From assembly GCA_000424365.1 (NCBI GenBank), contig AUJT01000004.1:33372-97371 (forward strand): a stretch of DNA of 64,000 bases, read 5' to 3'. The notes beneath the pieces are model-generated. The model searched no databases. It saw nothing but the letters and a program-made list of their open reading frames with translations, and was not told the origin of the DNA. Origin of the DNA: Lachnospiraceae bacterium NK4A144. GTDB taxonomy: Bacteria; Bacillota; Clostridia; Lachnospirales; Lachnospiraceae. Positions 21,175 through 50,615 of this stretch are shown in pieces. How positions within the stretch are numbered: the first letter of the stretch is position 1; each line of letters starts with the position of its first letter. The position numbers and the translations under genes were made by a program.

Positions 21175-21200
21175 TTACTGTGCCTCCGATATATAAACAC

Positions 21201-23056: not shown

Positions 23057-23103
23057 AATTTTCCCTTCTAAAATGAAGCGGCCGACTTTATTCTCAGCCC
23101 CTC

Positions 23104-34992: not shown

Positions 34993-36009
34993 TCACATCG
35001 TCCTGTTAGTTTTACACTTAAGCGAATCCTGATTTGCCTTTCTTATAAACCACTCATATGCCAAACGGAATAAACGGATAAATACCGAACGGGGTATCTT
35101 CCTGTAAAGGATCTTTTCAAACTTTAATACAATGCCCGTATCCGCAGGCATCTTTCTGTATCCTCTCCAGGGGGACAGCGCGATATACTTATCAAAAAGC
35201 GCATTATCCGGATGTACATTGTCCTTATGCCATGGAAATTCTCCGACAAACCTGAAAAAATGAAAGATCACAGGCTTACGGAGTGCATCATGCAGTTCGT
35301 CGAGACTGTAAAAGCCTCTGCTTCCGAAAGTTCTGAAATAATCTCTCAGGGAAAAAGCAAGATATGCAGGTTCGATATTGTACTCTGCCGGCAGTCTCAT
35401 GATCTCACCCTTAAGAACTACGTTTAAGAGATCCTGATCAGGTGACGGATACCATGCACGCACATTTTTTACATGATTTGCGATCCTTTCCGAACAGCGG
35501 TCACTCCTCCACTTCTTCATGTCAAAGAGGATCACTCCGGAATTGTAGTAATAATCGTCTTTTGAAAATCCAAGTCGTCTCTTATGGAGTCGTACAAGCG
35601 AATCCAGCGACATTGCCAGCGGATGTCCCTCCATATCGAGACTGTTTAATTCATCCAACGGACCATTTACGATAGTATCTGCATCCAGATAAAGCAAACG
35701 TTCCACATCATCATTTAAAAGCCATGACAGAAACAGCCGCATATTTGCTGCGTAGGAACCACGGTACTTCGGCATGTTCATCTGTTTCATGCGAAATACA
35801 AGCTCTTTTGTATCAATAAAGCATAAACAGCGATGATAACCCGCAGCCAGCGACCTGAGCTTTGCTTCTGATTCCGGAGAAAGATTTTCCCCAAGGATAA
35901 AGACCCTGATCCTGTCTGCATGACGGTTATTTTCAAATAGTGACGTAATGCTGGCACCCGCATACGGCGCATATTTTTCATTAAACTGATAAAGTACATC
36001 AAGCTTCAT
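34993..36009 (-). CDS. Family 8 glycosyltransferase
   Basis: 338 residues. LDVLYQFNEKYAPYAGASI, RLLYLDADTIVNGPL with the DxD metal site, YYNSGVILFDMKKWR and DQDLLNVVLKG are clear GT8 (retaining galactosyl/glucosyltransferase) marks. The start at 36009 overlaps the GtrB-like gene by 11 bp and begins at the conserved beta strand; the frame is open to 36063, but those residues do not fit the family. The basic C-terminus (about 290-338) probably binds the membrane. Confidence 0.82.
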   Translation of the reverse strand: MKLDVLYQFNEKYAPYAGASITSLFENNRHADRIRVFILGENLSPESEAKLRSLAAGYHRCLCFIDTKELVFRMKQMNMPKYRGSYAANMRLFLSWLLNDDVERLLYLDADTIVNGPLDELNSLDMEGHPLAMSLDSLVRLHKRRLGFSKDDYYYNSGVILFDMKKWRSDRCSERIANHVKNVRAWYPSPDQDLLNVVLKGEIMRLPAEYNIEPAYLAFSLRDYFRTFGSRGFYSLDELHDALRKPVIFHFFRFVGEFPWHKDNVHPDNALFDKYIALSPWRGYRKMPADTGIVLKFEKILYRKIPRSVFIRLFRLAYEWFIRKANQDSLKCKTNRTM

Positions 36010-37009
36010 GCTCTGCTGATCCTTCCTCCGATGATCCATCTGTTTCTGCAGTATCCTTATCAAAGTTCAGACGTCTTTCCTCAACAACCAGCGGCCGATG
36101 CATGATACGCGTATTGATATTCAGGATATATTCGCCCATAAAGCCTATGAAAAACAACTGCAATGAACCAAGCAGGAATACACCTATTACCATCGGAGCA
36201 TAACCTGCTGAGAACTCATGCCAGTGTGTAAGTTTCATTACGAGATACACCAGCGCAACGATAAAGCTTGCCGCCGACGCAATAAATCCGGCAAAAGTAG
36301 CCAGTCTGAGTCCAACCTTTGTATAGGACGTTATGGAAAGCATGGCTGCATCGTAAAGAAGATAGAAATTGTTGCTCGTCTTTCCGGCACGACGCTTCGG
36401 CTGAGTAAACGGGATCTCTTTTCTCTTAAAATTATACTCTGCAACGATCCCTCTAAGGAACGGGATCGGATCATCTAGCTGACGCAGGAGATTTATAAAG
36501 GATTTATCATAAAGTCCTGTACCGGTAAAGTTCTCAATGAGCTTTACTGTGGACATATTTCTGATCATCTTGTAATAGCATGTCCTAAGGAAATAGATAA
36601 GCTTATTTTCTTTACTGGTAGTCTTTATGGCACTTACGATCTTATAGCCTTCTTCCCACCATTTTACAAATTCCGGAATAAGTTCCGGAGGATCCTGAAA
36701 ATCACATGCCATAGAGATAGTTGCGTCTCCAGTAGTCTGGCACATTCCATAAAATGGCGAATTGAACTGACCAAAATTCGTTACGTTAAGGATCGCACGG
36801 ATATGGCTGTTTCCCTCACAAAGTTCTTCCAGTTTTTCACGAGTGCCGTCTTCTGAGCAGTTATCGATGAACAGCAGCTCCCAGTCATAGGCTGAAAGCT
36901 GCTCTGTCATGATCTTTGTGATCGCCTCGCTTATAGGTCCTACATTTTCGATCTCGTTGTAACACGGGATCATTATACTTATCTTTTTCTTACGACTTTT
37001 TTCTTTCAT
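35999..37009 (-). CDS. GtrB/CsbB-like polyprenyl-phosphate glycosyltransferase
   Basis: 336 residues. KISIMIPCYNEIENV, LFIDNCSEDGTREKL, FGQFNSPFYGM and ISMACDFQDPPELIPEF identify a DPM1/GtrB/CsbB-type GT2 enzyme, followed by two membrane helices (about 230-300). These enzymes load one sugar on undecaprenyl phosphate for use by GT-C or YfhO enzymes outside. Three YfhO-like genes in the window are candidate users, which fits a three-component glycosylation system; no GtcA-like flippase was seen. Confidence 0.83.
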   Translation of the reverse strand: MKEKSRKKKISIMIPCYNEIENVGPISEAITKIMTEQLSAYDWELLFIDNCSEDGTREKLEELCEGNSHIRAILNVTNFGQFNSPFYGMCQTTGDATISMACDFQDPPELIPEFVKWWEEGYKIVSAIKTTSKENKLIYFLRTCYYKMIRNMSTVKLIENFTGTGLYDKSFINLLRQLDDPIPFLRGIVAEYNFKRKEIPFTQPKRRAGKTSNNFYLLYDAAMLSITSYTKVGLRLATFAGFIASAASFIVALVYLVMKLTHWHEFSAGYAPMVIGVFLLGSLQLFFIGFMGEYILNINTRIMHRPLVVEERRLNFDKDTAETDGSSEEGSAEHEA

Positions 37010-37037: not shown

Positions 37038-38846
37038 TTATATGCTCTGTGCTTCTTCACGGATCTTTTTATACTCTTCTTCCGGAAGGAACGGGAACAT
37101 ATCATCAAGCGGCGGAGACACAATGGTTCCGTCAGGATTTACCTTTGACGAAAGCTTTGGTTCAAAATTCTGCTTTGGATCAACAAAGACCTCACAGATG
37201 ACCGGTCCTGTGCTGTTTAACACTTCATCTATCTTTTTGCCGGCATCTTTTAATGAATCTATCTTTGAATACTCTAGTCCAAATGCCGCTGCGATCTTTT
37301 TAAATGACGGGAAGCTTACACCATTTCCATCACTTATTCCGACAAGATCACGTCCCTTAAAGAGATTCGTCTGAGTCTGACGTATCGAATGATATCCATT
37401 ATTGTTAAGGATAAATATCTTCAGATTCAGATTGTTATACACTGCGGTCTGAAGCTCCTGGATATTCATCATAAAGCTTCCGTCGCCGTCAATACAGATG
37501 GTTCTCTTCTTTCCTCTGGCAACAGCGGCGCCGAGAGCAGCCGGGAAACCAAATCCCATAGCAGCAGAACCCGAATTTGTAAATATCCTTACGCCCTTAC
37601 GTACCTTAAATGCCTGAAAGGTCTGTACGCATGCTGCACCATTTCCGCAGATGACCACGTCATTTTCTTTCATGTGATCTGAAAGTTCTTCAAGGAAAGG
37701 ATACGGATTCATGGGCTTTGGAACTTCACTGTACTCAGGCAGATTAGGTGAATATTTCTTATAAATGTTTCTGCACCACTTGAGCCACTCCTGATGATCA
37801 CCAACTTCATCGGTGGATGCGTGTGCAAGCTCTGAGAGCACTTCCTTTACATCTGCATGGATAGGCATATCGATATTTACCGTAGGCTTATGAAGCTCAT
37901 TTTCATCGATATCAACCTGTATCTTATATGCATCTTTTGCAAACTGATGCTTATTGTAGCTAATGATACGTATATTCATACGGCATCCGAGCACAAGCAG
38001 AAGATCAGCGTTCTGAACGATGAAGTTTGCCCCTCTCTGTCCAACAGTTCCCGGAATACCTACATAATACGGATTTGCATCCCATAAGAGATCCTGTGCA
38101 TTCCATGCTGTAAGGATAGGAATACTGAGCGCGTGTGTTGCCTCCAGAAACTCGGGATAAGCATCACCCAGACGGATTCCCTCTCCCGCAAGGATAACCG
38201 GTCTCCTTGCAGCTTCTATATGCTCAAGGATCTTGTCTGCGTCTGTTTTTCTAAATACAGGCTGTTCTTTCTTTTTTGTATTATCAGGTGAAAAACCTGT
38301 GAGATCATCTGTATCAACAATAGCAGCCTGAATATCAAGCGGCACATCGATCCATACAGGACCTTTTCTGCCATGATTAGCGAGATACCATGCCTTTTCC
38401 AGCTGATAGCGGATCTCATTCGGATTTGTGATCATTACAGCAAATTTAGTAATAGACTTCACCATTTCTGTAATGTTACCCTCCTGGTCACCAAGCTGAC
38501 GAAGCGGTACATCTGTTGACCACATGGTAGTTTCGCGCTTTACCTGACCTGAAATCACAAACATAGGGACAGAATCTACCCAGCAGTCAAATGCTCCTGT
38601 TATGGCATTTGTTCCACCGGGACCGCTTGTTACGCATACTGCTGCGATTTTTCCGGTAAGTCTGGTATACCCCTCTGCCGCAATAGCCGATCCCTGCTCG
38701 TGGTGATTGTACACACAATGAAGATCATCATGATGACCGAATGCATCATTTAAATGCATTGCACCACCGCCTGTAACAGTAAACACGGTATCTACGCCAT
38801 GAGACGCGAGAAAATCTGCTATATATTGAGCTATTTTAACCTTCAT
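37038..38846 (-). CDS. Thiamine-diphosphate enzyme (acetolactate synthase/YerE-like)
   Basis: 602 residues with the three-domain plan of acetolactate synthase: the activating Glu50 in YNHHEQGSA, SGPGGTNAITGAF, and the TPP-binding GDGSFMMN with NNNGYHSIRQ. Acetolactate synthase for amino acids is unlikely in this setting: no small subunit, no ilv genes. In yersiniose synthesis YerE, a TPP flavoenzyme of this family, adds a two-carbon unit to CDP-4-keto-3,6-dideoxyglucose, and rfbF, rfbG and rfbH for that sugar lie 6-9 kb upstream. It has a GGAGGAG ribosome site; an inverted repeat CGTCAG/CTGACG (38866-38884) lies before the start. Confidence 0.82.
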   Translation of the reverse strand: MKVKIAQYIADFLASHGVDTVFTVTGGGAMHLNDAFGHHDDLHCVYNHHEQGSAIAAEGYTRLTGKIAAVCVTSGPGGTNAITGAFDCWVDSVPMFVISGQVKRETTMWSTDVPLRQLGDQEGNITEMVKSITKFAVMITNPNEIRYQLEKAWYLANHGRKGPVWIDVPLDIQAAIVDTDDLTGFSPDNTKKKEQPVFRKTDADKILEHIEAARRPVILAGEGIRLGDAYPEFLEATHALSIPILTAWNAQDLLWDANPYYVGIPGTVGQRGANFIVQNADLLLVLGCRMNIRIISYNKHQFAKDAYKIQVDIDENELHKPTVNIDMPIHADVKEVLSELAHASTDEVGDHQEWLKWCRNIYKKYSPNLPEYSEVPKPMNPYPFLEELSDHMKENDVVICGNGAACVQTFQAFKVRKGVRIFTNSGSAAMGFGFPAALGAAVARGKKRTICIDGDGSFMMNIQELQTAVYNNLNLKIFILNNNGYHSIRQTQTNLFKGRDLVGISDGNGVSFPSFKKIAAAFGLEYSKIDSLKDAGKKIDEVLNSTGPVICEVFVDPKQNFEPKLSSKVNPDGTIVSPPLDDMFPFLPEEEYKKIREEAQSI

Positions 38847-38955
38847 AATCTATCTCCTCCATGGACGTCAGTTTATATCTGACGAAATTTTTCCGGTATT
38901 CTTTCGCTATGATCACACCTTACAGTATTCTTCAGAATACCACAATTTTCATCTG

Positions 38956-41772
38956 TTACTGCTTTTTTCTCAAATTTTTAATAATTCCTGTATTGAAAAT
39001 CCCGATCAACATTACTAATATCACTGCACCGACTCCGCCTATCAGTCCAACCCGGACATATGGAGTTTCATAACGCAGTTCTATTTCATGACTTCCTGGT
39101 TCAAGCTCCAGTGCCATAAAGAACACATTTGCAGGAATAATCTCTGTTTCATTTCCATCGACATAGGCTCTCCACCCTTTCATATAAGGAACTGATAAAA
39201 CAAGAGCCTTTGGTCTTGTGACCGTTATTTTTCCGGAAAGGCAGTTGACACCTTCCTCTATATCCGTCAGTACTTCCTGTCCGAATCTTTCCTGAGCATC
39301 CCATACGTCAGATAACGGCGATGCGATCACGTCAAATTTATCAAATGTATAAGTTCCGGGATTTCGGAATGTTACGGTAATTTCCTCTGGCGTAGCATCA
39401 CTATAGCCCATATTTGCCAAAAAATCATGCCGTCCACTGTAAACATCACTGTTAGCGGTAATAATTCCTACTATGCTCTGCCTTTCTCCATCATCAAAAA
39501 GTATCGTACTTTCTTTATCAAGTGTATGAAAGGCATCTTCTGCATAAACCTTTTGCTTTTCATATGCGGTAAGCTGAGACCACGCCCCGTCATCATAGGT
39601 ATCTTTCTGCTTCATGCCTTTAAATTGCAGATTCTTAAATAATACATGAAGTTCAGAATCACCGGCACTTTTTAATTTTAGCGTCAGCGAACCACCATGA
39701 CGGATCACAAAGGAATTTCCCGTAACCTCTGCATTTCCCTTTGTTATGATATCCTCCAGTACCGACACCGAATCATCCTTAACCGATGCCTCCGGAAGAC
39801 TGCTATGCTCCATGACAGCGCCTGTAAGTAAAGCCGCTTCTCTCTCAGTTTCTGACATATCAGAAAACCTGTCATATGGAATATAGCTGTCACAGGTAAA
39901 ACCAACGGGTAGTGCATCCGGATTTTTCCACACCGTAACATGTCCTACAGGCGTGTCCCCCTCTGCCGCCTTTTCATTATAGATAGGCGGGACCAGCTTT
40001 TCAGAATCATCATTGGAAATATAGTACTTTACACCTGTCAGAAGTTCCAAAAGGCTTCTATTTTCCACTCCATCATAATGCCACTCCTCTGTAACATTAA
40101 AATAGAGCTTATTTAAGAAATCGGAGCTTGATGCATCTGTTAATGAAAAATACAAACGGTTTGTGTACTTTTTCCTTAAGATCGATGAGTTTATGGTAAT
40201 CGGTAATGATGATTCATCTATCCTGTAAAAGCTGCTATCGTTAACTTCGTTTAATACCTCATCCGCATTTTCTTCAAGAAGATTTTTGTCTGCAGCATTG
40301 AAGTCAAGGTAATTTACCAACGAATCATTCTCTACTACAGAATACCGGTATTTACCATTTGCAGCTATTGATACCATCAGCAGTATCATCAGGATCATCG
40401 TACGAGCGGTATTATCTTTCCAAAGACCGGTGTTTGCCATCATTAGGGCAGCTACACATATCAATATCAGAAAACAGGTGATGCTTTCTGTGTTTCGCGT
40501 AACGGAAAAGCCAAGAAAAAATACAGCAAGACATATTGCTGCGATAAGTATCCTCTTTTTTTCCGTCTCACTTATGTTTTCAAGCTCAGGGAGTACCTTT
40601 GCCGCTATCATTCCGACTATCATCGAGTATCCCCAGGTCCACCTGTTCGTAACATAGGAAAATCCGGTGAGTGCAAAGGCGCACGCCGGTATCATAAGCA
40701 TAGCTGTGCCAATGATGAAGATAACTCTGTAGCTTTGCCACTTTTTTTCTTTATGAAAAAAGAGTGTCATTACAGCAAACATTCCTATCGCCGTGTAGCC
40801 CATCAGAGTCCAGTAGCCCGGTCTCTGAGTGTTCATAAAATCGGCAAAAAATTTCACATAATATGACAGATCATACAGCAGCGGTACCGCATGCTTTGAG
40901 TTGAATCTACCGGAATTTACAGTTGCCAGTACCAGCGGCAGCATTATAGGAAGTGACAGCATCACACCTACAACTCCCGCACCTGTAAATCGTAATAATA
41001 CAGGGATCAGTTCCTTAAGCTTTATCTTTTTATAGATCGTTATATAACGGAATACGCAATAGATAACCAGCAGAACAGTCTGCATATAGAAAAAATAATA
41101 GTTACTGATAGCTGCGATTCCTACTGCAAGTATAAAAGGGATCGGATTTTTCTTTCGAAAGATCCTCTCAGCTCCATACAGTATCCACGGAAACCATGCT
41201 ACCGGAAGCAGGAAGCAGGAATGCATTATACCTAGTACCATAGGAAACGCTGAAAAGCAGTATATCAACGCTCCGATCAATGTAGTGCTCCTACGGTTTC
41301 CATGAAGTATTGAAAAGCACGAAAAACCAAGTCCGCCTATATATAATCTCATTAAAAACAGTAACGTATAGTAATGTTCTATAAGAGATTCCGGAACGAG
41401 TACCGACAGAAGGACCATCGGATCTCCTGCTCCGTAGTAATGAAACGTTGTCAGTATGTCCGACCCGTAACCTACAGAAAAATCCCACATCGGAAATACC
41501 AGCCTGTGCTCTGTTAAAAATGTATTCATCACATTTTTCAAATACCTGCTGATATAGAGCAGTGCGTTATAATGCTGTTTTATTCCGTCACCATCCCATA
41601 CCATCGTCTTTCTGTATAACGCAAAATATCCGTACACCAGCAGTGCGGACACTGCAAAGAGTACGGTATAGCTGATCATATATGAGCATTTTTTTGCGCG
41701 AAATCGATCAAAGACATTCTCTGCTTTTTTGATGCAATCTCTCATAGATACCTCGACTGTTTTCTTATTCAA
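38956..41772 (-). CDS. YfhO-family membrane protein (938 aa)
   Basis: About 13-14 membrane segments in the first 460 residues, with MVWDGDGIKQHYNALLY in the first outside loop, then a large outside domain (about 470-900) and one last membrane segment. The end DVNGNETEI-like core reads KGWRAYVDGNETEIIPANV, a strong YfhO signature. In Bacillus and Listeria such proteins glycosylate teichoic acids from C55-P-sugar. It overlaps the HAD gene by 8 bp. Confidence 0.8.
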   Translation of the reverse strand: MNKKTVEVSMRDCIKKAENVFDRFRAKKCSYMISYTVLFAVSALLVYGYFALYRKTMVWDGDGIKQHYNALLYISRYLKNVMNTFLTEHRLVFPMWDFSVGYGSDILTTFHYYGAGDPMVLLSVLVPESLIEHYYTLLFLMRLYIGGLGFSCFSILHGNRRSTTLIGALIYCFSAFPMVLGIMHSCFLLPVAWFPWILYGAERIFRKKNPIPFILAVGIAAISNYYFFYMQTVLLVIYCVFRYITIYKKIKLKELIPVLLRFTGAGVVGVMLSLPIMLPLVLATVNSGRFNSKHAVPLLYDLSYYVKFFADFMNTQRPGYWTLMGYTAIGMFAVMTLFFHKEKKWQSYRVIFIIGTAMLMIPACAFALTGFSYVTNRWTWGYSMIVGMIAAKVLPELENISETEKKRILIAAICLAVFFLGFSVTRNTESITCFLILICVAALMMANTGLWKDNTARTMILMILLMVSIAANGKYRYSVVENDSLVNYLDFNAADKNLLEENADEVLNEVNDSSFYRIDESSLPITINSSILRKKYTNRLYFSLTDASSSDFLNKLYFNVTEEWHYDGVENRSLLELLTGVKYYISNDDSEKLVPPIYNEKAAEGDTPVGHVTVWKNPDALPVGFTCDSYIPYDRFSDMSETEREAALLTGAVMEHSSLPEASVKDDSVSVLEDIITKGNAEVTGNSFVIRHGGSLTLKLKSAGDSELHVLFKNLQFKGMKQKDTYDDGAWSQLTAYEKQKVYAEDAFHTLDKESTILFDDGERQSIVGIITANSDVYSGRHDFLANMGYSDATPEEITVTFRNPGTYTFDKFDVIASPLSDVWDAQERFGQEVLTDIEEGVNCLSGKITVTRPKALVLSVPYMKGWRAYVDGNETEIIPANVFFMALELEPGSHEIELRYETPYVRVGLIGGVGAVILVMLIGIFNTGIIKNLRKKQ

Positions 41773-42424
41773 AAAATCCCGGGATTTCTGATGCGTTTGC
41801 AGCTGCTCCGATGGCTTTATAGCCTTCTATGTCACCTGTTTCATGGAAGCCAAATCCATATGTAACTGCAAGGAACGGACTTCCTGCCTTTTCTGCTCCT
41901 TCTGCATCAAATATCGTATCACCGATCATTACTGCTTCAGAAGTTTCTATTCCCATGTTTTCACAGCAAAGTCTGATGATATCATGCTTTTTCAGGTTAT
42001 CGAGCGCATCTGATCCATAGATGCAGTCAAATACAGTATCTAACCCAAATTTTTCACAGATCCTTTCTGCCATATCCTGCTTTTTGAGCGTTGCAACCGC
42101 CAGTTTTACACCAGCCTTTTTTAACTCTTTTAAGGATTCGATAACACCTTCATAGGGGTCACATTCTAATACGTATCCCTTTTCACGATAGGCTTTTCTA
42201 AAGAGATTTGCTACTCGTATTGCTTCTTCCATCGGAAGGTCATAGTATTTCTGGAATCCCATCTGGATCGGTGGTCCGATGAACATATCTACTTTGTCAC
42301 GGTCTACGAGCGGTAGACCTGCTTCTTTTGATGCTTCATCTACCGCATGTACTATTCCGCGCTTTGTGTAGAATAGTGTGCCGTCCATATCCCAGAGTGC
42401 TGCTTTATACTTTAATGATGACAT
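41765..42424 (-). CDS. HAD-IA phosphatase (phosphoglycolate phosphatase-like)
   Basis: 219 residues. ALWDMDGTLFYTKRG holds the nucleophile DxD, KLAVATLKKQ motif II, and VMIGDTIFDAEGAEKAG the metal-binding end, with an alpha-helical cap between. Typical length for the Gph-like subfamily. In this operon it lies between a YfhO gene and, upstream across repeats R1 and R3, the aldolase gene. It could remove phosphate from a precursor of the branched-sugar route, but this is only context. Confidence 0.78.
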   Translation of the reverse strand: MSSLKYKAALWDMDGTLFYTKRGIVHAVDEASKEAGLPLVDRDKVDMFIGPPIQMGFQKYYDLPMEEAIRVANLFRKAYREKGYVLECDPYEGVIESLKELKKAGVKLAVATLKKQDMAERICEKFGLDTVFDCIYGSDALDNLKKHDIIRLCCENMGIETSEAVMIGDTIFDAEGAEKAGSPFLAVTYGFGFHETGDIEGYKAIGAAANASEIPGFFE

Positions 42425-42467
42425 ACTTTTCTTTCTTGTGCTTGTTTATCAATTACACTTCCCGTAC

Positions 42468-42867
42468 GTTTACCTAGTATATTGTTACTGTTCACTCGCT
42501 TCCAGCTCGCTCACGTAACGGATTTTGCCAATTAAATCGCCTCCGGCGATGGGCAAAATCCAATGGCTTTTCATCTTTCTTGGTCGTAAACAGCTAAAGC
42601 ATACACTCTCACTAAGCTCACATTCGTTCGCTAAGTGTTCGTAGCATCCGCAGCGTAGTGCTCCGTTTACGTGTGAACTGTTACAGTATATTATCTCATT
42701 CCGCGCTCGGACAGCTCTAAGCTCACGCACTGTCCTCATATACTCGATAATTTATGCGCAACTCGCCGCATTGCGGCTCAAACAGTTCGCATAAATTATC
42801 TAATCGGACAGTGTATTCGCTAACAGCTGCCGGCTGATTGCTGCATGAGATAATATACTAGGTAAAC
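42468..42867. repeat. Structured repeat R3, copy 1, interrupted by R1
   Basis: The left arm GTTTACCTAGTATATT (42468-42483) continues after the inserted R1 copy as ATCTCAT (42693-42699). It is the exact complement of the right arm at 42845-42867 (begins ATGAGATAATATAC). The core shares most of its bases with the copy at 50657-50849, including TCCGCGCTCGGAC and GCTGCCGGCTGATTGCTGC. An inner stem pairs GATAATTTATGCG with CGCATAAATTATC, and CACTGTCC pairs with GGACAGTG. Core identity is conserved, arm sequence is not. Confidence 0.75.
42484..42684. mobile_element. MITE-like repeat R1, copy 2 (201 bp) with 8-bp target duplication
   Basis: The ends GTTACTGTTCAC and GTGAACTGTTAC are the same as in copy 1. 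The direct repeat AGTATATT lies at 42476-42483 and 42685-42692. Removing the element and one direct repeat restores the perfect left arm of R3. It is about 54 bp longer than copy 1, with an extra CGTAAAC/GTTTACG hairpin region. The inner hairpin is GGATTTTGCC/GGGCAAAATCC. Confidence 0.88.
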
Positions 42868-42893
42868 TTTGGTTTTCACTCTCATTCAATACC

Positions 42894-42923
42894 GTTTACT
42901 CGCCTCTGGCTCGCTCCGGTAAT
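42894..42923. repeat. Degenerate R1-like fragment
   Basis: TTTACTCGCCTCTGGCTCGC resembles the left end of R1 (TTCACTCGCTTCCAGCTCGC) with a few changes. It lies 6 bp past the aldolase stop; no right end or target duplication is seen. Confidence 0.35.
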
Positions 42924-42928
42924 AAACT

Positions 42929-44545
42929 TCATGCCTCGTATTTAGAAGATGTGAGGAAACGGATCTTCATTCCCTTGTCTCTGAGGGCACGGACTACTTC
43001 ACCTGTATAGTGGTTGAGCTTTATTGCGTAGTCTGCCGCAAATTCGTACTCCATGCCTGAATCTGCGTAGTTTCGTCCGGATTCCGGAATATAACCGTCA
43101 AAGCCTGCAAGTACTACTTCTTTTACATTTGTGTCGGCTAAGAGACGGAGAAGCATCGGAAGAGAATTATCCGGGATCTCAAAGTTCATGTCTACAAGTC
43201 CTGCGTAGTCTACATTGTAATCAAAGCTTCCTCTTGCAGGAGTTACGTTTGATGTAGCAACTATTTTGAGAGCCCTGCTTCCGCTTTCTGCAGAGAGCTT
43301 TGCAAGCCTTGATGACATCTGCATATATCTCTTTGCATTACTTAAAAAGATATAGTCAAGATGGAATCTCTCCGGCATAAAGTTTATCGCCATTGTTACC
43401 GGCGCTTCTGATGCTATGAAATCAGTGACTTTTTCTCTTTCTTTTCCGATAGATGGACCGGGACCGAGTACAAGTACGGTCTTTCCATTAAATGCTTCTG
43501 CCAACCGCTCTCTGTCTGCTGTATCACTTATTGTGTTGTTCTGATACTCAAGATATAGCTTCTCGATATATTCCTGATTAAAGGCAAGTGCCTCTTCCTC
43601 TTTGATCATGGAAAGTATCTCGTTTATAGACTTTACAGAAAGAGTCTTTTTCTTAAGGAGATACTGAGCATATTTTGGATGACAGTCATTACTTGCACAG
43701 AGGAAATACTGCATCTGATATCCCCATGGATTTTTTTCATAGATCTTCATGATGCAGGTATCTATCATCTCAAGAACCTGACTCGTATGGTAATGAGTAT
43801 ACTCATGCTCATTCATCCATGTTGTGAGCAGCTCCAACGGACAGTTTCCTGCGGATTTTCCGATTCCGTATGCAGAACCGTCTATCACAAGATCGCGCTC
43901 TGATTCCATTTCCATAAGTGCTACAGTATTTGAAAATGCCTGCTGGAAATTGTTATGCGCGTGGTATCCGATCGCAATGTCCGGGAGCAGATAGCTGTCG
44001 ATCAGATCATATATATGCAATAGCTTTGTACGATCCAACAATCCATAGGTATCTACAATATACATCGCTATAGGATGAAGATCATTTATCTCCCTCACAA
44101 GTTCGATCATCTCATCATCAGTATAACCTGTAACGGATACCGGCTGTGCTCCTACAAGATACCCCTTCTTTTTCAGCTCTTTACAAAATGCAATAGCTTC
44201 ATGTCTAGTATTTTTCTTTATCATGACACGGATTCCGTCTAAAACAGACTCCTCCGCATCCTTGATCCTGGACAGATCGCAGGTGCCATAATCGATCATT
44301 CCGAAAATCTTTGCATTTCCGTGGTCTAACCCTGCAAATATCTTATCCATTGCCTCGCTGTCGGGTGTCATTGTCCTGTCAGGATCAAAGGGTTCTCTTT
44401 CGTCAAGAAAACCTGTTTCGATATAATCAATACCTGCTGAAACTGAACGTTCAAAAAGATTTATGATATCTCCGCGTCCAAATCTCCAGTCATTTACAAA
44501 ACCGCCATCTCTAAGCGTACAGTCAAGCAATCTTATGTTTCTCAT
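42929..44545 (-). CDS. Aldolase (HMGL-like) fused to a GPGPS Rossmann-like domain
   Basis: 538 residues. Residues 1-280 are a DRE-TIM barrel: LLDCTLRDGGFVNDW with the Arg-Asp pair, ETGFLD, and GYHAHNNFQQAF with metal-binding His residues, as in 4-hydroxy-2-oxovalerate aldolase. These enzymes cleave or form 4-hydroxy-2-oxo acids from pyruvate and an aldehyde. From about 335 a second domain begins with VLVLGPGPSIGKE and continues with VVLAGFDGY; the pattern recalls DUF115/CST-I-type Rossmann folds, but the match is weak. It directly follows rfbH, and the TPP enzyme is downstream, so a shared role in a branched sugar is likely. Confidence 0.78.
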   Translation of the reverse strand: MRNIRLLDCTLRDGGFVNDWRFGRGDIINLFERSVSAGIDYIETGFLDEREPFDPDRTMTPDSEAMDKIFAGLDHGNAKIFGMIDYGTCDLSRIKDAEESVLDGIRVMIKKNTRHEAIAFCKELKKKGYLVGAQPVSVTGYTDDEMIELVREINDLHPIAMYIVDTYGLLDRTKLLHIYDLIDSYLLPDIAIGYHAHNNFQQAFSNTVALMEMESERDLVIDGSAYGIGKSAGNCPLELLTTWMNEHEYTHYHTSQVLEMIDTCIMKIYEKNPWGYQMQYFLCASNDCHPKYAQYLLKKKTLSVKSINEILSMIKEEEALAFNQEYIEKLYLEYQNNTISDTADRERLAEAFNGKTVLVLGPGPSIGKEREKVTDFIASEAPVTMAINFMPERFHLDYIFLSNAKRYMQMSSRLAKLSAESGSRALKIVATSNVTPARGSFDYNVDYAGLVDMNFEIPDNSLPMLLRLLADTNVKEVVLAGFDGYIPESGRNYADSGMEYEFAADYAIKLNHYTGEVVRALRDKGMKIRFLTSSKYEA

Positions 44546-44567
44546 TTTGCTCCTTTTTTCCAGATCT

Positions 44568-45917
44568 TTACGCCTTAGCTGCGTGACGTATCACGCGGAT
44601 CATTCTATCGAGACGTGCCGCATCCATTCCGGGATATACTCCGATCCAGAACGTATTATTCATGATGTAATCAGTATTTGTGAGGTCTCCCACAACCCTG
44701 TATGCCGTATCGTCGTTACGGATAGAGTCAAAGCACGGATGTCTCAGTATATTTCCCGAGAAAAGCATTCTGGTCTGAACGCCTTCTCTCTCTATCTCCT
44801 GTACCATTTCATTACGGCTTAGTCCTGATCCTTCTTTTACTGTTATCAGGAATCCAAACCATGAAGGTTTTGAATTTTCACAAGGCTCAGGAAGTATAAG
44901 CTTGTCGGACAGATCCTTTAATCCGTTATAAAGTGTCTCAAAGTTCTCTCTTCTGCGCTTTACAAAATTCGGGAATTTCTCAAGCTGTGCACATCCCACT
45001 GCTGCCTGCATGTCTGTAGGCTTGAGATTGTATCCGAGATGTGAATATACATATTTATGATCATAACCTGCCGGAAGCTCTCCGTACTGGCCGTCATAAC
45101 GGTGTCCACATGAATTATCAACGCCTGAAGGGCAGCTGCACTCTCTTCCCCAGTCTCTCATAGAGCGGATTATCTTATGCAGCAGAGGATCCGATGTATA
45201 AACAGCGCCGCCTTCTCCCATTGTCATATGATGCGGAGGATAGAAGCTTGATGTTCCGATGTCTCCGATCGTTCCTGTAAGTTTCTCCTCTCCATTTATC
45301 GTATAAGTGGTTCCGAGAGCATCACAGTTATCTTCTATGAGCCAGAGATCATGCTTTTCGCAAAATGCCTTTACAGCACCGAGATCAAACGGATTGCCGA
45401 GAGTATGCGCGATCATAACAGCCTTTGTCTTTTCGGAATATGCTTCCTCAAGACGTGTTGTGTCGATATTGTACTGCGGTATTGTCACATCTAGAAATAC
45501 CGGTACAGCGCCATACTGTATCGCAGGAGCGACAGTTGTAGGGAATCCCGCTGCCACTGTTATTACTTCATCGCCTCTCTTAATACGGCGGTCTCCGAGA
45601 AGAGGGCTGGTAAGTGTCATAAATGCGAGAAGATTTGCGCTTGAGCCGGAGTTAACTATTGATACATAGGGAACTCCGAGGTATTCGCCAAACTTCTTCT
45701 CAAACATGTTTGTATATCTTCCGGAGGTAAGCCAGAATTCCAGAGAAGAATCCACGAGATTCAGTATTTCCTTTTCATCATAAACCCTGCTCGCGTAAGG
45801 GATCCTCTGACCTTCTTCATAAGGCTTTTTCTCGCAGTGATATTTTTTAGCGTAGTCTGCTACTGCATCCAGTATCTGCTGACGCGCTTCTTTTTCTGTC
45901 ATATTTTCAAAATTCAT
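44568..45917 (-). CDS. rfbH: CDP-4-keto-6-deoxyglucose-3-dehydrase (E1)
   Basis: 449 residues of the DegT/AHBA aminotransferase fold. The usual PLP lysine is replaced by His in SFYPPHHMTMGEGG, the hallmark of the E1 dehydrase. Cysteines for a [2Fe-2S] cluster are present: one in EDNCDALG, then after about 60 residues RECSCPSGVDNSC (C-X1-C-X7-C). E1 makes the 3-deoxy intermediate from CDP-4-keto-6-deoxyglucose using a separate reductase (E3, RfbI/DdhD), not found in this window. The start at 45917 follows GAGGAA; an ATG at 45929, next to the rfbG stop, is possible too. Confidence 0.92.
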   Translation of the reverse strand: MNFENMTEKEARQQILDAVADYAKKYHCEKKPYEEGQRIPYASRVYDEKEILNLVDSSLEFWLTSGRYTNMFEKKFGEYLGVPYVSIVNSGSSANLLAFMTLTSPLLGDRRIKRGDEVITVAAGFPTTVAPAIQYGAVPVFLDVTIPQYNIDTTRLEEAYSEKTKAVMIAHTLGNPFDLGAVKAFCEKHDLWLIEDNCDALGTTYTINGEEKLTGTIGDIGTSSFYPPHHMTMGEGGAVYTSDPLLHKIIRSMRDWGRECSCPSGVDNSCGHRYDGQYGELPAGYDHKYVYSHLGYNLKPTDMQAAVGCAQLEKFPNFVKRRRENFETLYNGLKDLSDKLILPEPCENSKPSWFGFLITVKEGSGLSRNEMVQEIEREGVQTRMLFSGNILRHPCFDSIRNDDTAYRVVGDLTNTDYIMNNTFWIGVYPGMDAARLDRMIRVIRHAAKA

Positions 45918-45930
45918 TTTATTCCTCATA

Positions 45931-47013
45931 TCAAACCCTGAATACCGACTCTTCCATGTCCTGAAGGTATTCTTTTATTTCACGCTCGGTCTCTTTTCGT
46001 ACATCTCCGCCTGAGATATATACATGGCTCCAGAGAGCGGTTCTTTTTACTGCTTCTCCGACTCTCCAAATCGGATGCCAGCCAAGCTTCTCACGTATCT
46101 TTGCGCAGTCAAGTTTCAGGAAAGATGCTTCGTGCGGCCCACCATCACTGTGATTTTCCCACGTAAGACCATCTCCATAGGCTTTGCAGAAAAGTGTCGC
46201 AAGTTCACCTGCACTCTTTACATCCGTAAGCTCCGGTCCGACATTGTAATAATCCGCAAATCTCTTTTTGTCCTCATACTGCTTTTCAGCGATCTCGAGA
46301 TATACTGCCAGCGGTTCCAAAACATGCTGGAACGGTCTGGTTGCATCGGGATTTCTGATGATTATCGGCTTTTTCTCCTCTGCTGCACGTACGCAGTCAG
46401 GTATCAGACGATCCACAGCGAAATCACCGCCGCCTATTACATTTCCGGCTCTGGCAGTAGACACTGCAGGACTGTTTTCATCAGAAAAGAAAGACTTCAC
46501 ATAGCTGTGAGTCACAAGTTCCGAGCAGGATTTTGAATTTGAATAAGGATCATAGCCATCGAGAGGCATATCTTCCTTAAAAGCTGTATCGTCGTCTCTA
46601 TTCAGGTAAACTTTATCAGTTGTGACATTAAGCACAGACTTTACCGAATCACATTCTCTGACGCACTCTAACAGATTTACGGTTCCCATCACATTTGTTT
46701 CATAGGTGTAACGGGGTTCTTTATACGAAGTACGAACTATCGGCTGTGCTGCAAGATGAAAAACTATCTCCGGCTTTTCCTCCATGAAAACTCTGCGAAG
46801 ATGCTCATAATCTCTGATATCGCCGATCTCTGAACGAAACTCATTTCCGTCAAAGAGCATATCAAAAAGTGCCGGTTCCGTAGGAGGCTCGGAAGAATAG
46901 CCTGTAACGACAGCTCCTGCCATTAAAAGCATTTTTGTGAGCCAGCTTCCCTTAAAACCTGTATGGCCTGTGATAAGTACTTTTTTATTTTTATAAAAAG
47001 AAATGTCCAGCAT
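45931..47013 (-). CDS. rfbG: CDP-glucose 4,6-dehydratase
   Basis: 360 residues, extended SDR. VLITGHTGFKGSWLTKML near the N-terminus is the RfbG-type GHTGFKGSW motif; FHLAAQPIVR, TTDKVY (Ser replaced by Thr as in dehydratases), YDPYSNSKSCSEL with Tyr-Lys, and GGGDFAVDRLIPD follow. It makes CDP-4-keto-6-deoxyglucose. The stop is next to rfbH, and the start 12 bp after rfbF. Confidence 0.93.
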   Translation of the reverse strand: MLDISFYKNKKVLITGHTGFKGSWLTKMLLMAGAVVTGYSSEPPTEPALFDMLFDGNEFRSEIGDIRDYEHLRRVFMEEKPEIVFHLAAQPIVRTSYKEPRYTYETNVMGTVNLLECVRECDSVKSVLNVTTDKVYLNRDDDTAFKEDMPLDGYDPYSNSKSCSELVTHSYVKSFFSDENSPAVSTARAGNVIGGGDFAVDRLIPDCVRAAEEKKPIIIRNPDATRPFQHVLEPLAVYLEIAEKQYEDKKRFADYYNVGPELTDVKSAGELATLFCKAYGDGLTWENHSDGGPHEASFLKLDCAKIREKLGWHPIWRVGEAVKRTALWSHVYISGGDVRKETEREIKEYLQDMEESVFRV

Positions 47014-47025
47014 ATTTCCTCTTTA

Positions 47026-47799
47026 TCAATTCCATGTTTTCCAAGGTGCCTGTCCTGATGCCCAAAGCTTCTCGAGCTGCTCTTTTTCTCTCTGGGTATC
47101 CATACATTTCCAGAATCCGTCATGATGGAATGCCATGAGCTGTCCCTCTTCTGCAAGTTTCGGGAGCGGTCCCTTTTCAAATACAGTATCGTCACCCTCG
47201 ATATAATCAAATACAGCAGGCTCAAATACCATATATCCGCCGTTTACGACTCCGGCATCTTTTTCTTCTTTTTCTGCAAATTCATGAACCTGACCACCCT
47301 TACCGAGATCAAGTACGCCAAATCTCTGATCGACAGAGATCGCAGTGATGGTTCCTATACGTCCATGACTCTTATGAAACTCCAGAAGTTTTCCAATATT
47401 TACGTCAGATACTCCGTCACCATAAGTGAGCATAAAGGTCTCGTCACCTATATAATCTCTGATGCGGCGAACACGTCCACCTGTCATGGTATGGAGTCCC
47501 GTATCCACTAGAGTTACCTTCCACGGCTCCGCATAATGGTTATGTACTTCCATGGAATTTTCCGCGAGATCAAATGTAACATCTGATGAATACAGATAGT
47601 AATCCGCAAAAAATTCCTTTACCATATGCTGTTTATATCCAAGGCAGATCACAAACTCATTAAATCCATAATGAGAGTACTCTTTCATGATGTGCCAAAG
47701 TATCGGCTTGTCTCCGATCTCTATCATCGGCTTCGGTCTTAAATGGCTCTCCTCGGAAATACGTGTTCCGAGACCACCTGCGAGAATAACGACTTTCAT
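47026..47799 (-). CDS. rfbF: Glucose-1-phosphate cytidylyltransferase
   Basis: 257 residues. VVILAGGLGTRISEESHLRPKP is the nucleotide-binding start; YGDGVSDVNIGKLLEFHKSH and FWKCMDTQREKEQLEKLW are typical of RfbF. It makes CDP-glucose from CTP and glucose-1-phosphate, the first step of the 3,6-dideoxyhexose route. It is first of the rfbF-rfbG-rfbH-aldolase run; the 77-bp gap to the YfhO gene upstream may contain its promoter. Confidence 0.94.
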   Translation of the reverse strand: MKVVILAGGLGTRISEESHLRPKPMIEIGDKPILWHIMKEYSHYGFNEFVICLGYKQHMVKEFFADYYLYSSDVTFDLAENSMEVHNHYAEPWKVTLVDTGLHTMTGGRVRRIRDYIGDETFMLTYGDGVSDVNIGKLLEFHKSHGRIGTITAISVDQRFGVLDLGKGGQVHEFAEKEEKDAGVVNGGYMVFEPAVFDYIEGDDTVFEKGPLPKLAEEGQLMAFHHDGFWKCMDTQREKEQLEKLWASGQAPWKTWN

Positions 47800-47876: not shown

Positions 47877-50615
47877 TCATAATACTTTCTTCAAAACCTC
47901 ATGTATCACAAACCACACCATAGGTATAGCATAAAAAATTGCTGCAAAAGTTCCAAAGGCTAGTGTATACAGGAATTCTATCACCCTGCCTGCCGGACTC
48001 TGTACCATCTCCTCACTGCCAGATTTAACGTATGTTCCGCGTTTTTCTGCGATCATCAGAAGAATAACTGCCAATAACGAAAGGACTGTGATGATACTTC
48101 CGGGTATCAGTCCCGCCGGGCAAAATGTAAGCTCTATTTCATTTTCTCCGTCTTCTACCGGTATACCTGTAAGTATTCCTGAGATGTCTGTGAGCTCTGC
48201 TTTTTTCCCATTTACTTTTGCAGAAAAGCCGGGATCGCAGTGTATCGGAAGGATCGCCATATTTTTTTCTGCTGAGCCCTTAACGGTTGCTGTGAGAGAG
48301 GACTTTCCGACTTTTACATCTGCTCCCTCTGCATTCAGAGTATCACTAAGGCTCTGCAGCTTATCCAGATCGAGGATAAAAATGTACGATTTTTCCGGAC
48401 AGTTCAGAATCACTTCCTGATCTTCATAGGACCCAAGATAGATAAGACTGGTATTGAACCATGCAGGATATGCTGTATTATCCATATCTCCGATCGTCGG
48501 AACCGGAATATTTTTTCCATTTACCTGTACAGCGTCAGCCTGTCCGCCTTTCATGTACAGAGCCTTTCGTCCCTCTATCTTTATCTTTCGCTCAGTCTTA
48601 CCGTTTTCATCGTCAAAACGCGTTATGATCGTGCCATCACTGCCGCTTACTGCCTGATACAATTTATTCTGCGCATCCGCAAGATGCATTTCTGACGGAT
48701 CAAAACTTTCCAAACTTTTTCCATTGATCGCGATAACCGATGGAAAAGCTGCATTGTTTCTGTATAATTCGTATTTCCCATTTGAAGTCTCAGCTTCACC
48801 TGTCTTTTCTGTTACCGGTGATATTCCTTCAAACGGTACTCTGGTTATGTACTCCGTAACGCCAAGCAGAGAATCTGTAAAGAATGTTCCGCCTGCATCC
48901 AGTATCCTCATGAAATGGGTACTGTATCCAAGCTTTTCTGCACTTTTCTGCTGTTTTCCCGTAACGGTATTCGCCCAGCCTGTAACAGTCGCGCGACCCA
49001 TTACCATGCCGTAGTTTGTATTTAAGTCTGTATCAGGATTCTTGAGTCTCTGTATCCTGTCTGTTTCAGCATCTCCGGTAAGATGAAGCTTTTCATCAAG
49101 CTCCATAGCTGTAACCACGTATTCACCTGACTGCTCCGGGTCAGCAAAAAATCTATCCGTGAAGTGTGGATTACCGTATCCGGCAGCTGCGCCGATCACA
49201 AGCTCGGCTATCGGAAGCAGTATCATCATATAAAACGCTGTTTTTTGAAAAAACATGCTTTTAAGCACTTTGATCTTTCCATAACGTACCAGCGCGCAAA
49301 TGAGGAAAATCACAAACAATCCCGCTGCAAAGATCACCCAAAACCGGTAAAGCTCCTGAACCGTCCATGTATCATGATCAAAATAATATGAAAGCACATA
49401 ACTCACAAATATCATGGATAAATCAAATGCAAATGCCAGCGAAACTACATTATTTAACCGTGTAGCTTTCCCTTCTCCGCACCGTTCCTTTGCAAATTCT
49501 CCGGAGAAATAAACTGCTCCTGTAAGGATCGCAAAAGGGATCAGATATGCGCATCTGATCGGATAATGGTAATAGGTTCCAAAGTGCCACAGGATATTTA
49601 TTGATTCAAAAGGTATCAGCGCACAGGGTATAAATACCATCAAAAGTACCGTTACTGTACGTTTTACATCCTTTCTGAAATGAATCGCTCCGAAAAGGAT
49701 CACTGCCAGAGCACATTCCAGTCCGTATAACTGCCAACCCTTAACATAATACTCGTCTGCACCTACTGAGTTTAATATCGACACAAGTGTATCGACCGGT
49801 CCGCCGCTCAGATTGGAGTTAAATCTGGATGACATTGTCATCTGAAGAACCGCAGGTATCAGCATCACTGCCGAAATCGCCAGACCGCCAACTGTTCCTG
49901 CCGCTATCTTCCAGATCCTGTCTCTGCGGATTTCCGTATTTTCTTTCCCGCGCAGCAATATAAACATCCATACTCCGGAGAATATCAGGATATAGATCAG
50001 ATGCATGAATCCCAGATAGTAGCTAAGCGCAGTTGTAAATCCAAGCATCAGCGTATATGTCCACGGCTTACCGTCTTTCATGAGTTTATAGAATCCAAGA
50101 GCGAGCAACGGCAGAAATACAGATGTATCAAGATAGGTCGGGATAGTGTAATGTGTCAGCGTGTATCCACAAAGACCATACGCTGCTGATGCGATAAATC
50201 TGACATGATACGGTACTTCTTTTTTTACTGCCGTCAAAAAAACGTACATAGCAAGCGCCATTCCAAAGAGGTGAAGCCCCATAAATACAGACAGACTCTT
50301 CATCACCATATTTCGCGGAATGAATAAGAAGAACAGATTGAAGGGAGAAATATTCCACTGGATCGCACTTCCCATGGAAAGATTCTGCCCTTCGTTTATA
50401 TACCAGCTATAGAAAAGAGCACTTTTTCCATGAAGTACGTCCCAGATATGATAATACAGCGGGGCGTTTGTCTGCCCCATGTCGTAATAGTCTATCCTGC
50501 CATCCCCAAAAGGAAATATTCCCTTTGCCAGCAGCACACCCATGAATATCGCAAATGTGAGCATAGCCGGAGCTATGCTAAGCAGGATATTTTTTATTTT
50601 TATCTGATTCTTCAT
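47877..50615 (-). CDS. YfhO-family membrane protein (912 aa)
   Basis: About 13 membrane segments in the first 480 residues, with FPFGDGRIDYYDMGQTNAPL in the first outside loop (acidic GT-C-like site), an outside domain (about 490-840) and C-terminal membrane segments. IHCDPGFSAKVNGKKAELT is the YfhO-type end motif. Likely transfers a polyprenyl-linked sugar onto a surface polymer. It is the third YfhO-type gene here and appears to be its own unit or the head of the rfbF run. Confidence 0.8.
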   Translation of the reverse strand: MKNQIKIKNILLSIAPAMLTFAIFMGVLLAKGIFPFGDGRIDYYDMGQTNAPLYYHIWDVLHGKSALFYSWYINEGQNLSMGSAIQWNISPFNLFFLFIPRNMVMKSLSVFMGLHLFGMALAMYVFLTAVKKEVPYHVRFIASAAYGLCGYTLTHYTIPTYLDTSVFLPLLALGFYKLMKDGKPWTYTLMLGFTTALSYYLGFMHLIYILIFSGVWMFILLRGKENTEIRRDRIWKIAAGTVGGLAISAVMLIPAVLQMTMSSRFNSNLSGGPVDTLVSILNSVGADEYYVKGWQLYGLECALAVILFGAIHFRKDVKRTVTVLLMVFIPCALIPFESINILWHFGTYYHYPIRCAYLIPFAILTGAVYFSGEFAKERCGEGKATRLNNVVSLAFAFDLSMIFVSYVLSYYFDHDTWTVQELYRFWVIFAAGLFVIFLICALVRYGKIKVLKSMFFQKTAFYMMILLPIAELVIGAAAGYGNPHFTDRFFADPEQSGEYVVTAMELDEKLHLTGDAETDRIQRLKNPDTDLNTNYGMVMGRATVTGWANTVTGKQQKSAEKLGYSTHFMRILDAGGTFFTDSLLGVTEYITRVPFEGISPVTEKTGEAETSNGKYELYRNNAAFPSVIAINGKSLESFDPSEMHLADAQNKLYQAVSGSDGTIITRFDDENGKTERKIKIEGRKALYMKGGQADAVQVNGKNIPVPTIGDMDNTAYPAWFNTSLIYLGSYEDQEVILNCPEKSYIFILDLDKLQSLSDTLNAEGADVKVGKSSLTATVKGSAEKNMAILPIHCDPGFSAKVNGKKAELTDISGILTGIPVEDGENEIELTFCPAGLIPGSIITVLSLLAVILLMIAEKRGTYVKSGSEEMVQSPAGRVIEFLYTLAFGTFAAIFYAIPMVWFVIHEVLKKVL

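Follow-up and report, generated by a model that had tools for sequence, protein, structure and literature searches.

A gene set for a predicted long-branched CDP-sugar pathway, with an aldolase, a phosphatase and a thiamine diphosphate enzyme, in Lachnospiraceae bacterium NK4A144

Gene set and predicted pathway

A stretch of 64,000 nucleotides from Lachnospiraceae bacterium NK4A144 (contig AUJT01000004.1, positions 33,372 to 97,371; hereafter the window) was analysed. Between 37038 and 47799, its minus strand carries rfbF, rfbG, rfbH, an aldolase gene of the HMGL type (DRE-TIM) and the gene of an enzyme dependent on thiamine diphosphate (ThDP). The module is real and well conserved and, judged from sequence comparison, is most likely a pathway to a cytidine diphosphate (CDP)-activated deoxy sugar that is branched at C4 and bears a long polyhydroxy branch. 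We give this reading a probability of about 0.7. The initial annotation had grouped these five genes with exact coordinates, and had proposed that the aldolase makes a longer 2-oxo acid, that the ThDP enzyme uses this acid, and that the branch is longer than two carbons. Pairing of the two genes, replacement of the aldolase by other condensing enzymes, the 16/15 split of its partners and published donor preferences all support the proposal by comparison. A HAD phosphatase gene in the same run (41765–42424) had been overlooked, and its presence changes the likely aldehyde.

RfbF (DdhA, glucose-1-phosphate cytidylyltransferase; 47026–47799) scores 400 bits against TIGR02623 (cut-off 300), RfbG (DdhB, CDP-glucose 4,6-dehydratase; 45931–47013) 432 bits against TIGR02622 (cut-off 278), and RfbH (DdhC, CDP-4-keto-6-deoxyglucose-3-dehydrase, E1; 44568–45929) 723 bits against NF011936 (cut-off 423). 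The aldolase (42929–44545) matches PF00682 with 62 bits (cut-off 29), and the ThDP enzyme (37038–38846) has the three domains PF02775, PF02776 and PF00205. These matches confirm the grouping of the five genes. The HAD protein is phosphoglycolate-phosphatase-like (PF13419, 130 bits). The transcription order is rfbF, rfbG, rfbH, aldolase, a non-coding repeat of about 480 bp, HAD phosphatase, YfhO-type protein, ThDP enzyme, GT2 and GT8, all on the minus strand.

The gene families, the gene order, the affiliation of the ThDP enzyme and the recurrence of the genes are observed; from them we predict the reactions, the identity of the aldehyde, whether phosphate is removed before coupling, and the final sugar. 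RfbF, RfbG and RfbH, together with an electron-transfer reductase, would produce CDP-4-keto-3,6-dideoxyglucose. The HMGL/HOA-like aldolase (HOA, 4-hydroxy-2-oxovalerate aldolase) is a predicted pyruvate-dependent 3-deoxy-2-ulosonate (phosphate) synthase, and would join pyruvate and a sugar-derived aldehyde to a 3-deoxy-2-ulosonic acid phosphate. The aldehyde would most likely be phosphorylated, for example glyceraldehyde-3-phosphate or erythrose-4-phosphate, and the HAD enzyme is predicted to strip the phosphate from the ulosonic acid phosphate. Then the ThDP enzyme, a putative YerE/JanthE-like carboligase, would decarboxylate the ulosonic acid and attach an acyl chain of about 4–6 carbons, or possibly longer, at C4 of the keto sugar. 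The new ketone may then be reduced; no reductase for this was identified in the window. A PgfS/ArnC-like GT2 and the YfhO-type GT-C would pass the sugar via a lipid carrier to a surface polymer.

Recurrence of the gene pair and replacement of the aldolase

Co-occurrence of the aldolase with the ThDP enzyme, which the initial annotation had named as a check on its idea, was surveyed in 80 loci (L072–L151), the best 80 of 579 from one genome-contig scan with an alignment of ThDP enzymes. The loci belong to Bacillota, Bacteroidota, Spirochaetota, Fibrobacterota, Kiritimatiellota, Verrucomicrobiota, Actinomycetota, Chloroflexota, Nitrospirota and Pseudomonadota. The aldolase gene is present in 58 of the 80 loci, always on the strand of the ThDP gene, within 1.5 kb in 54 and within 4.5 kb in all 58; the query alignment was built from aldolase-bearing loci, and thus 58/80 is not an unbiased rate. 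RfbF, RfbG and RfbH are present in at least 34, 37 and 37 of the loci, respectively, and a GT2 of PgfS/ArnC-like profile in at least 50. These counts, and those of the epimerase-type reductase described below, come from called open reading frames (ORFs) and are lower bounds, with some genes hidden under antisense frames. The counts of the aldolase, of the HpcH-type enzyme, of loci without a condensing enzyme and of phosphatases come from a DNA search of the loci. The order rfbG, rfbH, aldolase, HAD, YfhO, ThDP, GT2, GT8 is identical in the window and in its nearest relative, L072. As the gene order is kept in L072 and the core pair recurs across phyla, the arrangement is not due to chance. As a separate observation, a PfkB-family sugar kinase is encoded in L142 (13443–14465) directly 3' of the aldolase, adjoining the ThDP gene, and may hint at a 2-keto-3-deoxy sugar acid.

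Fifteen of the 22 aldolase-free loci carry another condensing enzyme, which is of the HpcH/HpaI type in 12 and NeuB-like in three (L137, L146 and L147). The HpcH-type gene of L138 is on the strand opposite to the ThDP gene. Replacements are also present in a Bacillota sample of 11 loci (L169–L179), for which 299 Bacillota genomes were searched with the ThDP enzyme of the window: the HpcH type in L169 and L171 (2/11), a NeuB-like protein in L173 (about 3 kb away) and L174 (2/11), and the DAHP/Kdo-8-P-synthase type in L172 (PF00793) and its look-alike L176 (2/11), the last assigned because its first residues resemble those of L172. In L174 (5087–6983), the NeuB-like protein is followed by a single protein that combines a HAD domain (KdsC profile) with a SIS domain, shortly before the ThDP enzyme. 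The PF00793 protein of L172, which also gives a weak NeuB match, is accompanied by a HAD phosphatase and a ribulose-phosphate-3-epimerase-like protein. Independent Pfam confirmation was obtained for L098, L120 and L132 (HpcH), L120 and L132 (AroB-like), L137 and L174 (NeuB) and L172 (PF00793), and the remaining condensing-enzyme and AroB-like assignments were made by likeness to these loci. The HpcH/HpaI, NeuB and DAHP/Kdo-8-P-synthase families form 2-oxo acids from pyruvate or phosphoenolpyruvate (PEP) and an aldehyde. Thus, several families of one chemistry stand beside one type of ThDP enzyme, and this is the strongest indirect evidence for a longer 2-oxo acid as the donor.

Affiliation of the ThDP enzyme

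The best PDB match of the ThDP enzyme is JanthE (8rph, 398 bits), compared with 268 bits for E. coli acetolactate synthase (ALS) I (6lpi) and 262 bits for 5ahk. The enzyme is closer to JanthE than to ALS, and the YerE-type entry 5ahk is no closer than ALS. We take 5ahk to be PpYerE; the entry itself is labelled acetolactate synthase II. In a FastTree tree of 89 rows, the window enzyme is located inside an 81-row clade with JanthE, and three ALS rows and 5ahk are located outside. A C-terminal tail of the type DGTxVSPPLDDMxPFL was matched as a pattern in 70 of the 89 rows, including JanthE and the window enzyme. Of the other 19 rows, 11 carry what looks by eye like a variant of the tail and uL065 is a doubtful case; the remaining seven have no tail, namely the three ALS rows, 5ahk, L089_11, uL061 and uL062, where the rows of 6lpi and 5ahk are aligned parts of chains that are only 13 and 15 residues longer. 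According to these comparisons, the ThDP enzyme is not an ALS and groups with JanthE.

The best curated model for the enzyme is nevertheless that of ALS (TIGR00118, 373 bits), which would suit a plain ALS. The score is under the cut-off of 538, and JanthE is much closer. Two other ALS-type genes, 30% identical to the ThDP enzyme, are present elsewhere in the genome. The neighbours in the window are polysaccharide genes, unlike those of the ThDP match L179 of the Bacillota sample, whose neighbour openings read as ilv/leu genes of an ilv-type operon. A plain ALS was rejected on the score, the closeness to JanthE and the lack of ilv-type neighbours, and we give it hardly any weight. Twelve plasmid records match the ThDP protein, all with 31–33% identity, and wherever the gene is annotated it is called an acetolactate synthase.

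A yersiniose-type sugar would be produced if the ThDP enzyme added a two-carbon branch from plain pyruvate and the aldolase served another pathway. Together with the gene of a YerE-like enzyme, rfbFGH makes up the gene set for yersiniose, and JanthE accepts pyruvate too, according to a passage of PMC12188165. In the uncut loci L145 and L148, moreover, the ThDP enzyme is accompanied by rfb genes, and a condensing enzyme was not found. However, the aldolase is within 4.5 kb of the ThDP gene in the 58 loci, other condensing families are present in 15 more, and the YerE-type row 5ahk is outside the ThDP clade. We therefore regard the two-carbon branch as unlikely, and the long branch is preferred. 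In L089 (Prolixibacteraceae), a second ThDP enzyme (L089_11) is encoded a few genes downstream of the first, and groups with 5ahk in the tree at a node marked as potentially false; this one cluster may specify two different branched sugars.

Two partners of the aldolase

The aldolase was searched for in 150 genomes of the window's family, and matches were obtained in 67. From 36 aldolase-picked loci (L031–L066), 31 (L031–L060 and L065) with the long form or part of the C-terminal domain were kept; L061–L064 and L066, with short aldolases, were left out. A shorter ThDP enzyme stands beside the short aldolase in L061 and L062. Within the fetched stretches of the 31 loci, the partner of the aldolase is a ThDP enzyme in 16 and a cytidylyltransferase in 15, with both in none and neither in none. 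The same split was obtained when the DNA was searched with KdsB and ThDP proteins. The cytidylyltransferase is of the KdsB type in 11 loci, adjoining the aldolase in nine of them, and has a CTP_transf_3 domain in L045, L048, L057 and L059. One KdsB-type protein was scanned and is over the TIGR00466 cut-off. In five of the 15 cytidylyltransferase loci, the gene next to the aldolase encodes a KdsC-type phosphatase, and the one scanned passes TIGR01670. Any of rfbF, rfbG and rfbH is present in the fetched stretch of 12/16 ThDP loci versus 0/15 cytidylyltransferase loci (Fisher p 1.6e-5, uncorrected for kinship; here and below the test treats loci of related genomes as independent).

The partner label changes three times on the aldolase tree. 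Thus, the ThDP partnership was probably gained or lost more than once. A cytidylyltransferase for CMP-activated sugar acids requires a 2-ulosonic acid. One aldolase family serves both the ThDP enzyme and the cytidylyltransferase, which makes a 2-ulosonic acid the likely product. By this comparison, the aldolase product is most likely a 3-deoxy-2-ulosonic acid, probably first formed in phosphorylated form and then dephosphorylated by the HAD enzyme. The loci in which the aldolase stands beside a KdsB-type or CTP_transf_3 cytidylyltransferase are L042–L054, L057 and L059; a pyruvate-dependent, KdsA-free route to CMP-ulosonic acids is possible there.

The same pairing, in 15 of the 31 loci, raises the question of whether the aldolase product of the window is activated as a CMP-sugar acid, with the ThDP enzyme acting separately. 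The window contains CTP_transf_3 proteins at 21201–21902 and 61459–63120. However, these are about 21 and 17 kb from the aldolase, respectively, and the first sits in a NeuB/NeuC-like nonulosonic acid set. Moreover, no aldolase locus of the 31 has both partners in the fetched stretch, and a KdsB match is present in 0/80 ThDP loci. CMP activation in the window is thus rather improbable, and use of the acid by the ThDP enzyme is preferred.

Fold and motifs of the aldolase

Forty-five relatives from the 80-locus set align with the aldolase along the whole length. The AlphaFold model (pLDDT, the predicted local confidence score, of 90) consists of a barrel with following helices (residues about 1–345) and an orphan alpha/beta domain (about 344–538). 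In a Foldseek search, the N-terminal part best matches 3dxi ('putative aldolase'), followed by HOA such as 1nvm, with a TM-score of about 0.8 by target length. The aldolase scores 71 bits against NF006049 (cut-off 229) and 59 bits against TIGR03217 (cut-off 286), and is thus under the cut-offs of both HOA models. Arg12, Asp13, His195 and His197 are invariant in 46/46 aldolase sequences, and presumably correspond to the catalytic Arg and the metal ligands by analogy with HOA. The barrel with its helices and these motif residues (RDG and HxH) are shared with HOA (1nvm) and 3dxi; the scores under the HOA cut-offs, the lack of His at the catalytic position and the extra C-terminal domain are different from HOA.

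The C-terminal 195 residues (42932–43516) form a separate domain (model pLDDT 92), for which no Pfam family was found. The best fold matches of this domain are weak, and are archaeal HPPK (8sd5), SteA and a sialyltransferase.

Phosphatases and AroB-like proteins

In 42 of the 58 aldolase-bearing loci of the 80-locus set, a gene for a HAD or KdsC-type phosphatase lies no more than 6 kb from the ThDP gene. Its place beside the aldolase and ThDP pair suggests a phosphorylated aldehyde from central metabolism. L125 has a KdsC-like protein at the position of HAD, and the proteins encoded there in the Spirochaete loci L111 and L117 are HAD proteins that have diverged. Among the 73 ThDP loci with a condensing enzyme within 8 kb of the ThDP gene, 44 have only a phosphatase, nine only an AroB-like gene, one both and 19 neither. 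This distribution gives a Fisher p of 0.0005 (uncorrected for kinship), or 0.005 with an ORF-based count.

An AroB-like phospholyase is encoded near the ThDP enzyme in L087, L096, L120, L125, L129, L132, L133, L138, L139, L140, L144 and L146, often with a short-chain dehydrogenase/reductase (SDR). The protein is of the TIGR04425 type, over the cut-off in L120 and under it in L132. Going by its family, it would eliminate the phosphate and form a ring, and may close the branch into a carbocycle. L140 is a Bradyrhizobium locus. Bradyrhizose is a bicyclic C10 sugar whose genes are called unknown in a passage of PMC4743980.

Reductases and points against the pathway

Family scans covered the window genes beyond position 20178. 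No abequose/paratose-synthase-like protein was recognised among the scanned genes, in keeping with the initial annotation, which had seen no RfbJ/Prt-type reductase. This result bears on an unbranched 3,6-dideoxyhexose of the abequose, paratose or tyvelose type, the route to which has rfbFGH in common with the window. Such a sugar would leave the aldolase, HAD and ThDP genes unexplained; it was rejected on both grounds, and we consider it very improbable.

The initial annotation had offered the SDR at 50912 for the last reduction. This SDR, at 50.9 kb, is FabG/YmfI-like and is on the strand opposite to the rfb and ThDP genes. Its relative in L080 stands next to relatives of further window genes, some 7 kb away from the ThDP gene. 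In the 80 ThDP loci, a different, epimerase-type SDR (KR8) is present in at least 44 and directly adjoins the ThDP gene in at least 21. These features do not support the SDR at 50.9 kb as the last reductase, and it was rejected as a member of the gene set. When KR8 was sought in the window, a TviC/GalE-like protein (20197–21174) scored 88 bits and RfbG 18 bits. The best match elsewhere in the genome is partial (34%) and on another contig. KR8 was not seen among the called ORFs in the examined stretches of the near relatives L072, L073 and L085.

Several points weigh against the proposed pathway. A ketoreductase for the branch was not found in the window. The RfbH step needs an electron-transfer reductase of the RfbI/DdhD type, and none was found among the scanned window genes, with the rest of the genome not searched. 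In HOA, the catalytic His sits three residues after the Asp metal ligand, as we presume from DmpG/BphI. In an alignment by eye, this position is Tyr in 41/46 and Phe in 5/46 aldolase sequences (Phe16 in the window), and the proton transfer must thus differ from that in HOA. The 19/73 loci with a condensing enzyme that show no phosphatase and no AroB-like gene within 6 kb are the weak spot of the phosphate step, and indicate that it does not occur everywhere. In L131 and L134, some 7 kb separate the HpcH-type gene from the ThDP gene, and the ThDP tree has long branches, according to the program's own warning.

The condensing enzyme itself is not always present. According to the DNA search, seven of the 80 ThDP loci have none: three of them (L121, L126 and L143) run into contig ends, an AroB-like protein is encoded in L129 and L139, and no explanation was found for L145 and L148. 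None of the 11 loci of the Bacillota sample carries the HMGL-type aldolase, and L170, L175, L177 and L178, 4/10 loci outside the ilv operon of L179, have no condensing enzyme. Finally, RfbH is over the cut-off in 56 of the 150 genomes of the window's family (59 matches), and only 11 of the 59, including the window's own, are within 10 kb of a long aldolase. Most RfbH genes in this family may serve another purpose.

Comparison with known systems

The initial annotation had called this a possible new branched-chain CDP-sugar route. The published enzymes ErwE (erwiniose) and MMAR_2332 (caryophyllose) are precedents, and the principle is thus not new. According to passages of a 2025 review (PMC12247030), pyruvate is no donor for ErwE, whose preference is for functionalised donors, 4-hydroxy-2-oxopentanoate among them, and MMAR_2332 has a similar donor preference. 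The erwiniose route of Pectobacterium atrosepticum, as described there, has the same acceptor, CDP-4-keto-3,6-dideoxyglucose, and a YerE-like enzyme acting on 4-hydroxy-2-oxo acids. JanthE takes 4-hydroxy-2-oxovalerate with benzaldehyde, and its physiological substrates are called unidentified, in passages of PMC12188165. ErwE and MMAR_2332 are likened here by published description, and neither P. atrosepticum nor Mycobacterium marinum is among the best 80 of 579 ThDP loci. Erwiniose is 3,6,8-trideoxy-4-C-(1-hydroxyethyl)-D-gulo-octose. In our own reading, it is a 3,6-dideoxyhexose to which 4-hydroxy-2-oxopentanoate, formed from pyruvate and acetaldehyde, has contributed its four-carbon unit. 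Caryophyllose, the sugar of the MMAR_2332 route in M. marinum, similarly has a long branch, d-altro-1,3,4,5-tetrahydroxyhexyl on a 3,6-dideoxy-hexose (passages of PMC5706390), and differs in belonging to a lipooligosaccharide glycolipid of a mycobacterium.

The yersiniose route (YerE) shares the CDP-keto sugar and the kind of carboligation; it differs in the two-carbon branch from pyruvate, and 5ahk, presumably PpYerE, is outside the clade of the window enzyme. JanthE (8rph), the closest solved ThDP enzyme, shares the C-terminal tail and has a CDG motif where the window enzyme has GDG. The sister loci resemble the Kdo pathway (KdsA, KdsC and KdsB) in pairing the aldolase with relatives of KdsB and KdsC. 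In contrast to that pathway, an HMGL-type aldolase would replace the PEP-dependent KdsA, and the window set has no KdsB partner.

The in vivo source of the donor acid of ErwE was not found in the literature searched, in which the primary ErwE paper was not covered. Caryophyllose was nowhere linked to an aldolase gene: only PMC12247030 matched, and its aldolase passages are on other matters. The consulted passages of PMC4703794 and PMC13354803 contain nothing on the aldolase. Neither a DRE-TIM aldolase tied to a polysaccharide nor a combination of two or more of HOA, cytidylyltransferase and CDP-glucose dehydratase was found in the literature searched. No account was found there of the HMGL-aldolase and phosphatase module, its spread or its CMP counterpart, an absence that is weak since primary papers were not covered. 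As far as we have found, the module and the donor-making half of the pathway are new, and the route is known in principle. The synthesis of donor acids was not described in the literature reached, and the module offers candidate donor-making steps and predicts exact masses. For the coupled ketone, the calculated [M-H]- is 574.08 with pyruvate, and 618.11, 664.12, 694.13 and 724.14 with a C4, C5, C6 and C7 unit, respectively. The module also assigns a testable role to an aldolase family that is uncharacterised, and to its HAD partner.

To our knowledge, long-chain-branched sugars are known from only a handful of bacteria. The loci suggest that many Clostridia carry such sugars, as do some Spirochaetes, some Bacteroidota and members of other groups; several of these bacteria are known through metagenomes of rumen or gut. 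Named strains among the carriers include Clostridium thailandense PL3, Lachnospiraceae bacterium A4 and Lachnospiraceae bacterium NK4A179. A wider proposal, for and against which we see even odds, is that this DRE-TIM family is a pyruvate-dependent 3-deoxy-2-ulosonic acid phosphate synthase. Its product would have two fates, CMP activation, or dephosphorylation and use as a ThDP acyl donor, the latter giving C11–C13 branched sugars by sugar–sugar C–C fusion. In this proposal, four condensing-enzyme families would have been recruited in several phyla to feed the same type of ThDP enzyme, and there would be a large unseen class of surface sugars.

Neighbouring genes

The surroundings of the gene set in the window are a polysaccharide cluster with glycosyltransferases, flippase-type proteins, a bacterial sugar transferase and a NeuB/NeuC/PseF-like set at 21.2–24.1 kb. 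NeuC (TIGR03568, over the cut-off), NeuB-like, PseF-like and TviC-like genes at 20197–24111 form a separate nonulosonic acid set. The protein at 61459–63120 combines a CTP_transf_3 domain at its N-terminus with a Glyco_tran_28_C domain at its C-terminus.

The following genes are all on the minus strand. The YfhO-type membrane protein (38956–41772; PF09586, 313 bits) is likely a GT-C glycosyltransferase, and has the same place in L072 and L073. The PgfS/ArnC-like GT2 (35999–37009; PF00535) scores 168 bits against NF047588, under the cut-off, and probably loads the branched sugar onto lipid phosphate. The GT8 glycosyltransferase (34993–36063; PF01501) has a neighbour counterpart with 64–73% identity in L072, L073, L080 and L085. 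A second YfhO/PgfM-like membrane protein (47877–50615; NF047590, 94 bits, under the cut-off) is encoded directly upstream of rfbF, and its relatives precede the rfb genes in L080 and L085.

The non-coding repeat between the aldolase and HAD genes (42430–42928) resembles a miniature inverted-repeat transposable element, with 16-bp inverted repeats at 42468–42483 and 42852–42867. It has 66 matching pieces in the genome, with the query place counted and some copies split in two.

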